64,000 nucleotides of DNA from Sheuella amnicola (GTDB taxonomy: Bacteria > Pseudomonadota > Gammaproteobacteria > Burkholderiales > Burkholderiaceae_B): NCBI RefSeq assembly GCF_010499255.1, contig NZ_JAAGRN010000002.1:248001-312000 (forward strand), read 5' to 3'. A model generated the notes under the pieces. It worked only from the letters and a program-made list of their open reading frames with translations. It was not told where the DNA came from and did not search any database. The position numbers were made by a program, and so were the translations under genes. Positions 58,411 through 60,555 of the stretch are shown in pieces (position 1 is the stretch's first letter; every line of letters begins with the position of its first letter).

Positions 58411-58443
58411 CAAAGCGCACCACAACGGTGCGCTTTGTTTTTG
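58411..58443 (+). terminator. Intrinsic terminator of the membrane protein gene
   Basis: A perfect 11-bp stem CAAAGCGCACC / GGTGCGCTTTG with a 5-base loop is followed by TTTTT. It separates the membrane protein transcript from the leuA leader. Confidence 0.9.
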
Positions 58444-58501
58444 TAATGCCAACAATTTTTGAATATTTTTAAAGATTTCCTTGTTTTTATGAGATGGGGA
58501 C

Positions 58502-58530
58502 TTGCGATGTCATGATTTTTGTGTTTAATT
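58502..58530 (+). promoter_or_regulatory. Weak promoter candidate for the leuA leader
   Basis: TTGCGA (58502-58507) and TTAATT (58525-58530) are 17 bases apart. A start near 58537 would leave almost no untranslated leader before the ATG at 58539, so the real promoter may be further upstream. Confidence 0.3.
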
Positions 58531-58538
58531 AATGGCTT

Positions 58539-58679
58539 ATGACTTCATTATCCGCAGCTGGCGCCAGCAACTCGATGGACATCACGATCTCTCAGGTTCG
58601 TGGCTTTGTCTCGTCCGGTGCTTCTGCTTCAAAACTGGATACGCTATCGCTACTACTAGCGATCGGTTGCCGGGCCTAG
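58539..58679 (+). CDS. Candidate leuA leader peptide (leucine attenuation)
   Basis: A 46-codon frame from ATG at 58539 to TAG at 58677-58679 ends in LDTLSLLLAIGCRA. Five of eight codons from 58635 to 58658 are Leu, four of them CTA (CTG GAT ACG CTA TCG CTA CTA CTA). A cluster of rare-type Leu codons shortly before the stop and followed by stem-loops is the hallmark of a leader peptide that senses charged tRNA-Leu. Translation may begin at the in-frame ATG at 58575 instead (34 codons). No ribosome site is evident for either start, which lowers confidence. It lies 154 bases before leuA. Confidence 0.6.
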   Translation: MTSLSAAGASNSMDITISQVRGFVSSGASASKLDTLSLLLAIGCRA

Positions 58680-58776
58680 CGCCCCGTGGCAGTCCGGCAG
58701 CCATCCGCCACTAGTTTCATCCCTGAATTCCAAATAATTTAACCGGCTATGGGCCGACAGTCGGCAAAAAACCGAC
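58665..58776 (+). promoter_or_regulatory. Alternative stem-loops of the leuA leader
   Basis: GGTTGCCGG (58665-58673) pairs with CCGGCAGCC (58694-58702) over the peptide stop. GTGGC (58686-58690) pairs with GCCAC (58707-58711), which excludes the first. GCCGA / TCGGC (58753-58765) and GTCGG / CCGAC (58760-58776) are also mutually exclusive. The pattern fits attenuation, but no GC-rich stem is directly followed by a long T-run, so the terminator form is unclear. The remaining DNA to 58833 holds TATTTTT at 58794-58800 and the leuA ribosome site. Confidence 0.5.
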
Positions 58777-58833
58777 AAAAGACTCCGGATGCGTATTTTT
58801 CGTTCCGCTGTCACAGAAATTGACTCGAGGTAA

Positions 58834-60555
58834 ATGATGCTTAAGAATCCCGCTACAAAATACGTTCCATTCAAACCCTTCGAACGTGATTTTTCCGAAC
58901 GAACATGGCCAAGCAAGCGGATTACCCATCCGCCCATTTGGATGAGCACCGATCTGCGTGACGGCAATCAGTCCTTGATCGAACCCATGAGCGTGGAGCG
59001 CAAACTTCGCTTCTTTGACATGCTGATCAAAATCGGCTTTAAGGAAATCGAAGTGGGATTTCCGTCAGCTTCTCAAACCGATTACGACTTTGTTCGGGCA
59101 TTGGTAGACGAAAAGCGCATACCCGATGATGTCACCATCATCGCCCTGACACAGGCTCGTCCTGAACTGATCGAACGTACAGTTGAAGCAGCGGCCGGTG
59201 CCAAACAGGCCATGATCCACTTGTACAACGCCTGTGCGCCCGGATTTCGTCGCATCGTTTTCAACATGAATCGCGAAGAAGTCAAACAAGTTGCGATCGA
59301 AGGTACCAAGTGCGTCATGGCGTGCATGGCAAAACATCCTGAAACCAATTGGTTTTACGAATACTCGCCTGAAGTCTTCAGCACCACGGAGCCCGACTTC
59401 GCGCTTGAAGTTTGCAATGCCGTGACCGAAGTCTGGAAACCAACTCCACAGAAAAAAATTATCTATAACTTGCCCGCCACGATCGAGGCGACGACTCCAA
59501 ACATGTATGCCGATCAGATTGAATATATGCACAACAATCTGAACAAGCGCGACAGCATCATCATTAGCCTTCATCCGCACAACGATCGCGGTACTGCCGT
59601 TGCGGCGGCGGAACTGGGCATCATGGCCGGCGGTGACCGCGTTGAAGGCTGTCTCTTCGGTAATGGTGAACGCACCGGCAACGTCGATCTGGTCACATTG
59701 GCATTGAATCTCTACACGCAAGGCATTCACCCCGGCCTCGACTTCTCGGATATCGATGAAGTGCGCCGCTGCGTTGAAGACTGTAACCAACTGCCCGTCC
59801 ATCCTCGTCATCCCTACGCGGGCGATCTGGTATTCACGGCGTTTTCCGGTTCACATCAGGACGCTATCAAAAAGGGCTTCGCCGTTCAGAAAGCAGATGC
59901 AATCTGGGAAGTTCCCTACCTGCCCATCGATCCGGCCGATCTCGGTCGCAGTTACGATGCTGTGATCCGGGTCAATAGCCAATCGGGCAAAGGTGGAGTG
60001 TCCTATCTGCTTGAACAGGAGCACGGTTTGGTCTTGCCTCGCCGCCTGCAAATCGAATTCAGTCGCGCCATACAACGCGTCACCGATGAGACAGGTCGCG
60101 AAGTCACGTCTGGCGATGTGTACGATATTTTCAGCAAAGAATACTTGTTGCAGACAACACCATGGAAGCTGATCAAACATCGCATTACCGGTGATCCGAC
60201 CGCCGCTGAAGGACAACACTTCACTATCGAAGCAGAGTTCGAAGTGGACGGTAAGCGTCGCACGCTGTCAGGATCCGGAGACGGTGCGATTTCGGCATTC
60301 GTCGACTGCCTGGGTATTTCGGCACGCATCATGGATTATCATGAGCACGCAATCGGAACCGGCACCGATACGCGCGCCGCCTGCTACACGGAAGTCAGGA
60401 TCGCGGATGCTCCAACCGGATTTGGTGTCGGTATCGATCGCGATATCGTAACTGCATCATTTAAAGCGGTTCTCAGCGCGTTCAACCGTCACATCGCGGC
60501 GAATGGCGCAGCTTCTGTCGTCAGCAAGCAATCGGCCGAGTCCGTTTCAGCCTAA
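58834..60555 (+). CDS. leuA: 2-isopropylmalate synthase (long form)
   Basis: A 573-residue enzyme that condenses acetyl-CoA and 2-ketoisovalerate, the first leucine-specific step. The TIM barrel has [33 protein letters not shown] and the metal motif [16 protein letters not shown]; the C-terminal regulatory domain (about 440-560) should bind leucine. The length and the N-terminal [19 protein letters not shown] mark the long (type 2) LeuA. ATG at 58834 or 58837 follows GAGG. A leader with clustered Leu codons precedes it, and a UUCG-loop terminator follows. Confidence 0.97.

Follow-up and report, generated by a model that had tools for sequence, protein, structure and literature searches.

A putative leucine-sensing leader resembling the LEU element upstream of leuA in Alcaligenaceae and other Proteobacteria

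In enterobacteria the leuABCD operon, whose leuA is of the TIGR00973 type, is preceded by a leader with a classical terminator and antiterminator. The peptide encoded by enterobacterial leuL has been described as 28 amino acids long with four leucines, and putative leader peptides before branched-chain genes have been found across Gram-negative bacteria (both in the available part of PMC6123439). The LEU element, which precedes actinobacterial leuA, consists of a leader ORF with leucine codons, a pseudoknot and a base stem in which the leucine run pairs with the Shine-Dalgarno sequence (Seliverstov et al. 2005, PMC1262725). In the portion of that paper available to us the element is reported from Actinobacteria only and its mechanism is left open; mutations in the Streptomyces leuA leader are said there not to fit classical attenuation, and a protein-binding site is favoured (PMC1262725). 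Two leaderless systems are also relevant, each as described in the available part of its source. These are LeuL1 of Streptomyces lividans, a leuA leader peptide of sequence MRFGLLLLSCRGEGL which has no typical Rho-independent terminator (PMC8079986), and Sinorhizobium meliloti trpL, a leader ORF whose attenuator also yields an sRNA, rnTrpL (PMC10117765). The available portions of PMC2965389, PMC4833913 and PMC10272879 hold no report of the leader described here, although single cases may have been mentioned earlier in the literature.

The window, by which we mean the whole stretch of 64,000 nucleotides analyzed, belongs to a genome of the Alcaligenaceae close to Sheuella, Zwartia and Jezberella; all features below lie on its forward strand. 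The upstream unit ends in an intrinsic terminator-like hairpin with a T run (58411-58447), which has an 11-bp stem at 58411-58437, a loop of 5 and the tail TTTTTGTAAT. It is followed by the leader frame (58539-58679) and then by leuA (58834-60555). The product of leuA is a 2-isopropylmalate synthase of the TIGR00970 (leuA_yeast) type, scoring 813.6 bits against a cut-off of 697.4; with TIGR00973 (leuA_bact) it scored 168.9 bits, under the cut-off of 598.7. Two ATG codons are found at the start of leuA (58827-58839 with the Shine-Dalgarno GAGG at 58827-58830), as also in some relatives. The sequence-only reading had taken 58834 as the start. However, translation probably begins at ATG 58837, a start that puts GAGG at a distance of 6 nt and matches the place of the ATG in relatives that have just one. 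No leader family of Rfam 15 matched the window between 57000 and 60500 (to E 5) or nine related loci including actinobacterial ones (to E 1); in both scans the only matches were weak ones to unrelated families, far under gathering scores.

With covariance model R1 the element was detected across 39 of 43 genera of the family, in 232 of 268 genomes, and at E 0.1 in 39 of 399 order genomes. Model R2 at E 0.01 detected it in 32/399 order and 8/274 class genomes, and R3 at E 0.01 in 16/299 phylum genomes; the window's own genome is included in each of the order, class and phylum searches, and R2 and R3 were built with earlier matches, the refinding of which is no test. The loci examined were the best matches of each search, nine weak R1 order matches and two R2 matches (G543, G025) being left out. 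Among them leuA adjoined the match in 57 of 58, 11 of 11 (three repeats) and 13 of 13 (one repeat) loci; L198-L200 and L231 repeat earlier places, and several genomes occur twice. The element is present in Cupriavidus metallidurans CH34, C. sp. EM10 and C. campinensis. It is also present in Rhizobium, Shinella, Ochrobactrum and Sinorhizobium, where only R. leguminosarum L223 (38.8 bits) lay outside the model. R3 found nothing clear in the Acinetobacter, Klebsiella, Moraxella, Vitreoscilla, Aeromonas, Burkholderia, Sphingomonas and actinobacterial loci examined (best 12.5 bits). A Sphingomonas parapaucimobilis plasmid (L210) carries a leucine-rich frame ending in LRLIRP, with CGACTT, a perfect 12-bp hairpin and the stop codon in an arm; this is perhaps a divergent form of the leader element. 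One weak R1 match in the window genome (G000:C9, 21.3 bits) resembles a signal-peptide-like gene start and was taken as chance.

For comparison, 111 non-redundant loci were divided into a genus group (26 loci, leuA identity at least 86%), the rest of the family (61 loci, 76-85%) and other families (24 loci, below 76%), which are identity bands and not taxa. By pattern, 192 of the 204 loci with a leuA match near the start kept the helix. We left out L009 and L039 (contig ends near leuA), L025, L026, L027, L029 and L030 (distant leuA), and L161, L165, L193, L196 and L206 (leader or start missed by the rule). Two side observations concern leuA in these genomes. Locus L169 (G064, genus group g18; probably Achromobacter) is a second, divergent leuA copy with a degenerate leader that retains the helix arms and GTGGC, with one leucine codon remaining near them. 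In three public MAG records titled Bordetella parapertussis (L040, L051, L056) leuA is 88-91% identical to that of the window, and their leaders resemble those of the window genus, so that the label looks doubtful.

The leader frame has 46 codons and its translation ends in LDTLSLLLAIGCRA. Re-reading of the sequence confirmed that its 3′ codons are CTG GAT ACG CTA TCG CTA CTA CTA GCG ATC GGT TGC CGG GCC TAG, with the five leucine codons in eight, four of them CTA, that had been reported before. An inner ATG at 58575 had been offered as an alternative start; we place the start at ATG 58539, which aligns with the start in relatives after a conserved promoter-like pattern. In the window the putative promoter (58502-58530) consists of TTGCGA (58502-58507), a 17-nt spacer and TTAATT (58525-58530) preceded by TGT, and its place is conserved in relatives. 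By eye, TTGC..-N17-T[TC]GACT-N8-ATG is common before the leader in Alcaligenaceae; a loose pattern made after this inspection fits 22/26 loci of the genus group and 50/61 of the rest of the family. A generic sigma-70 promoter scan of the window did not list 58502-58530. All but one of the 111 loci (110) have an in-frame ATG without intervening stop; the remaining one, the family locus L096, is cut by a contig end. Of the 86 family loci that have a leader ATG, 3 show a motif resembling a Shine-Dalgarno sequence ahead of it, versus 12 of 24 in other families; the earlier remark that the leader lacks a clear ribosome site holds. Such a lack would be explained by the promoter-like pattern ending at the ATG, and the leader mRNA is probably leaderless or nearly so, with a start no more than a few bases upstream of ATG 58539.

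That the frame is open carries little weight alone. In a count in which frame 0 is open by construction, one other frame has stops in 26/26, 35/60 and 21/24 loci (genus group, rest of family and other families), and the third has stops only in 9, 20 and 6 loci and is thus mostly open too. In the N-terminal part of the leader variable sites are about equally spread over the three codon positions; with no codon-position bias, there was no sign of selection on these residues. In five of the 24 other-family loci (L156, L162, L163, L166, L201) the leader stop codon, a TGA, comes only after the two helices and overlaps the start of leuA (ATGTTGA), an arrangement that could allow translational coupling of the two frames.

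The leucine run CTA TCG CTA CTA CTA (58644-58658) is placed so that its last CTA starts 9 nt before arm 1 of the first helix. CTACTACTA occurs once in the 64 kb, against 0.03 expected. We defined the cluster as the last eight codons before arm 1 and compared it with the available coding part of leuA and with the rest of the leader. CTA makes up 0.81, 0.75 and 0.46 of the cluster leucine codons in the genus group, the rest of the family and other families, versus 0.017, 0.002 and 0.014 of the leucine codons of leuA and 0.08-0.09 in the leader outside the cluster. The sequence-only reading had proposed looking in relatives for conserved leucine codons with synonymous variation and for covarying stems. 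The leucine codons are kept and the stems covary, but in place of synonymous variation the codon is mostly CTA, with CTG as the chief alternative.

Two interleaved helices follow. Helix 1:2 is formed by arm 1, GGTTGCCGGGC (58665-58675), and arm 2, GTCCGGCAGCC (58692-58702), with 11 bp; the leader stop UAG lies in its loop. The loop also contains GTGGC (58686-58690), which pairs as GUGGC:GCCAC with segment 3 (58707-58711) to form helix 2:3. The stems at 58665-58702 and 58686-58711 had been called mutually exclusive. Both are present and interleaved, but they use different bases; there seems to be too little room, at 4 nt between arm 2 and segment 3 in the window, for helix 2:3 to stand together with all 11 bp of helix 1:2. 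Alignment A1 has 43 sequences, of which 42 belong to the family; there helix 1:2 varies little and pairs to 99.2%, and a double-sided change is seen in 1/11 pairs, in one cell, which was matched by 16/500 shuffles. In A2, with 33 wider sequences, 98.1% is paired and double-sided changes occur in 5/11 pairs and 15 cells (reached by 2/500 and 0/500 shuffles). In A3, with 26 sequences including Alphaproteobacteria, the figures are 94.8%, 6/11 pairs and 28 cells (12/500 and 0/500).

Helix 2:3 covaries in the 24 other-family loci, its own score being 13.75 versus 11.69 permuted (0/300), with compensatory forms such as GCGGC:GCCGC and CTGGC:GCCAG. Within the family the helix is nearly invariant, and permutations equalled its own score in 300/300 and 69/300 cases. 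The best 2:3 partner lies at most 12 nt from arm 2 in 19 of the 24 other-family loci and 19-26 nt away in L150, L155, L162, L163 and L166. In Bordetella genomosp. 1 and 5 (L093, L100) an extra hairpin-like insert separates arm 2 from segment 3, with GTGGTA and GCCAC retained.

We then computed the probability of helix 2:3, counted exactly, in transcripts ending 12 nt past segment 3; masking of five arm 1 bases mimics a ribosome on the last leucine codon. Over 104 loci the predicted probability was 0.01 for free RNA, 0.50 with the five bases masked and 0.01 with the ribosome at the stop codon; the window values were 0.00, 0.82 and 0.00. In the window the predicted switch is sharp, with 0.04 at four masked bases versus 0.82 at five; a real ribosome might stop short of the fifth base or reach it. 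On the full transcript to leuA, masking of arm 1 raised the probability from 0.04 to 0.20 over all loci and from 0.00 to 0.01 in the window. This rise is small; therefore the switch, if real, would act on short RNA and depend on the exact footprint. A first estimate (0.14 to 0.87) had counted any downstream GTGG partner, the full-fold partner in the window lying in early leuA, and was replaced. A run of cognate codons in a conserved frame is thus found, by sequence and folding, beside covarying stems that are predicted to be switchable.

Because of the conservation, the CTA bias and the covariation, the leader cluster is not, on sequence comparison, a chance occurrence. The same three observations contradict the idea of a chance frame in an unregulated 5′ region, which can hardly be right. 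A regulatory protein or other factor might instead bind the RNA element, the leader frame being incidental, as was proposed for the LEU element. A protein-binding site was argued for in Actinobacteria (PMC1262725, available portion); in A1, moreover, strong conservation extends over arm 1 and its flank, and the third base is fixed where residues change (ATC, ACC and CGC before GGT). Against this, the in-frame CTA enrichment and the conserved place of the start codon argue for translation of the leader, and we regard incidental translation beside a binding site as unlikely. In a classical attenuator the intrinsic terminator would be helix 2:3, or else a stem of arm 2 and a segment further downstream, and helix 1:2 would be the antiterminator. 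This would agree with T runs past helix 2:3 or the arm 2 stem in some relatives only (e.g. L101 and L107; L146 in another family), and with T enrichment at offsets 6-8 past segment 3 (56-61% in the rest of the family, 38-58% in the genus group). Terminator-like sites were found in 22/61 loci of the rest of the family and 5/24 of other families, but these barely exceed the shuffles (16.0 and 2.3); in the genus group 1/26 is below the shuffles (3.3), and overall 28/111 compares with about 22. Intrinsic termination is therefore not general. The window has merely TTT (58715-58717), 3 nt past segment 3, and no intrinsic terminator was found before its leuA, as the sequence-only reading had noted. 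Altogether a classical attenuator is decidedly improbable. With a leucine-codon leader whose stems interfere with each other, no clear ribosome site and no classic terminator, the suggestion that the mechanism differs from enteric attenuation gains support.

We consider it likely, on the comparative evidence, that the leader is a LEU-like leucine-sensing leader that would raise leuA expression on leucine shortage. The sensor is well supported by comparison, through the codons, the two helices and the link to leuA. We infer the transcription start, translation, stalling, the direction of regulation and the output as follows. Transcription would begin with ATG 58539 or slightly upstream of it, and the leader would be translated by a ribosome. 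With ample leucine the ribosome would clear the rare CUA codons, halt at UAG 58677 and depart; the strong hairpin 1:2 would then form and leuA would be kept low. A shortage of charged Leu-tRNA would stall the ribosome at the CUA run with its leading edge just inside arm 1; hairpin 1:2 would yield, helix 2:3 could form on short RNA and leuA would rise. For many relatives a translational output is probable: the leucine run would act as an anti-Shine-Dalgarno and hide the ribosome site of leuA whenever no ribosome occupies the run. In the window genus, where this base stem is missing, the output would most likely be Rho-dependent early termination in the C-rich spacer, governed by segment 3 being free or paired.

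The untranslated spacer before leuA (58712-58826) is C-rich and G-poor, with mean C 0.320 and G 0.185 over the 26 genus-group loci, figures that stand without a control, and such a composition would suit Rho. Rho-dependent termination is our best guess for the window genus, and it fits a switch that is predicted to work only on the short transcript. Pairing of segment 3 with the leuA Shine-Dalgarno sequence was also considered. There was no co-evolution in a 30-nt test, a 13-nt test (181 loci, 89 distinct pairs) gave P 0.11, 0.07 and 0.77, and this pairing was dropped as a general output, being not significant; it is still predicted in Achromobacter-type loci. Predicted Shine-Dalgarno accessibility was the same across states (0.49, 0.47, 0.48), the leucine run lying outside the folded piece. 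A stem 45-95 nt before leuA is found in 25/26 genus-group loci, an equal length being reached by shuffles in about 3.3/26, and its sequence and place vary (58742-58776 in the window). A second exclusive pair had been proposed here, 58753-58765 versus 58760-58776; this pair is less clear, and the longest stem found in the window is another, CGGCTATGGGCCG. By eye, a further long-loop stem lies between segment 3 and leuA in L075, L088, L091, L094, L098, L101, L102 and L106, and it changes sequence among them (e.g. TCACCG/CGGTGA, TCACTG/CAGTGA, ATCGCCG/CGGCGAT).

Pairing of the leucine run with the Shine-Dalgarno sequence was analyzed with a permutation test on 99-118 pairs, in which permutation keeps shared ancestry. 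The native base stem was better than permuted over all loci (0/5000), in the rest of the family (-9.40 vs -8.27, 0/5000) and in other families (P 0.010), and weakly better in the genus group (-3.95 vs -3.62, P 0.015); controls gave P 0.010-0.029 in three sub-groups and 0.043 in one pooled control. Stems of -9 kcal/mol or better are present in 28/61 loci of the rest of the family (0.37 of cross pairs) and 9/24 of other families (0.22 of cross pairs). In 15 alphaproteobacterial loci, for which some leuA starts were chosen by eye, the mean was -17.25 versus -13.94 permuted (P 0.0004), the permuted mean itself being strong, and 15/15 reached -10 kcal/mol or better. Four loci of Rhizobium, Ochrobactrum and Shinella (L225, L229, L224, L220) have few leucine codons left, yet show a strong stem between leader and ribosome site (-15 to -20 kcal/mol). 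In the genus group 0/26 loci reach -9 kcal/mol, and because this base stem is absent the window copy was not classed as a LEU member.

The element may work like the LEU element and may be related to it. A wider reading, which we offer tentatively and which may well prove wrong, is an ancient RNA-and-peptide switch common to Actinobacteria and Proteobacteria and to one type of 2-isopropylmalate synthase. In such a switch the leucine codons would serve as both sensor and anti-Shine-Dalgarno, with the interleaved fold at the leading edge of the ribosome; the window genus would be derived, having kept sensor and fold, lost the base stem and moved its output. A proteobacterial leucine attenuator of separate origin is possible, if somewhat doubtful. 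The arm sequence differs between the window leader and the actinobacterial element, and homology was not recovered by covariance model, R2 and R3 giving no leader match in actinobacterial L211, L212, L213 and L215 and one 10.6-bit match in L211 on the other strand. A separate origin has to account for the same gene, an order of parts that by eye is alike in L211, L212 and L215, the pairing of the loop with a downstream segment, the alphaproteobacterial base stem, and intermediate leaders ending in LLLLGLTRGCRVR and LLLLGLIGDRRVR beside actinobacterial LLLLSCR.

If the preferred reading of a LEU-like leucine-sensing leader is right, the loci form a phylum-wide testable data set for an RNA element whose mechanism stayed open in Actinobacteria in 2005. 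They suggest direct control of translation by a leader in which the regulatory codons themselves mask the ribosome site, and they concern leucine synthesis in common environmental, symbiotic and clinical Proteobacteria.

Among described systems, S. meliloti trpL is likewise a leaderless amino-acid leader ORF of a proteobacterium, differing in being specific for tryptophan and in its sRNA (PMC10117765, available part). LeuL1 shares a leaderless leuA leader, no terminator and a leucine run followed by CR near the stop; it is actinobacterial and has 15 residues versus 46 in the window (PMC8079986, available part). The enterobacterial leader, with which the locus had been compared, also has a leader peptide with a cluster of leucine codons before leuA. 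It works by competition between terminator and antiterminator, whereas the window is without an intrinsic terminator, and the nearer parallel is the actinobacterial LEU element. Like that element, as described in the available portion of PMC1262725, the window leader is located before leuA and has a leader ORF with a run of leucine codons, two interleaved helices and no obvious terminator. Its codons are CTA versus mostly CTT and CTC, by eye, in actinobacterial L211, L212 and L215, and the base stem between the leucine run and the leuA Shine-Dalgarno sequence, absent in the window genus group, is present in many of its proteobacterial relatives.
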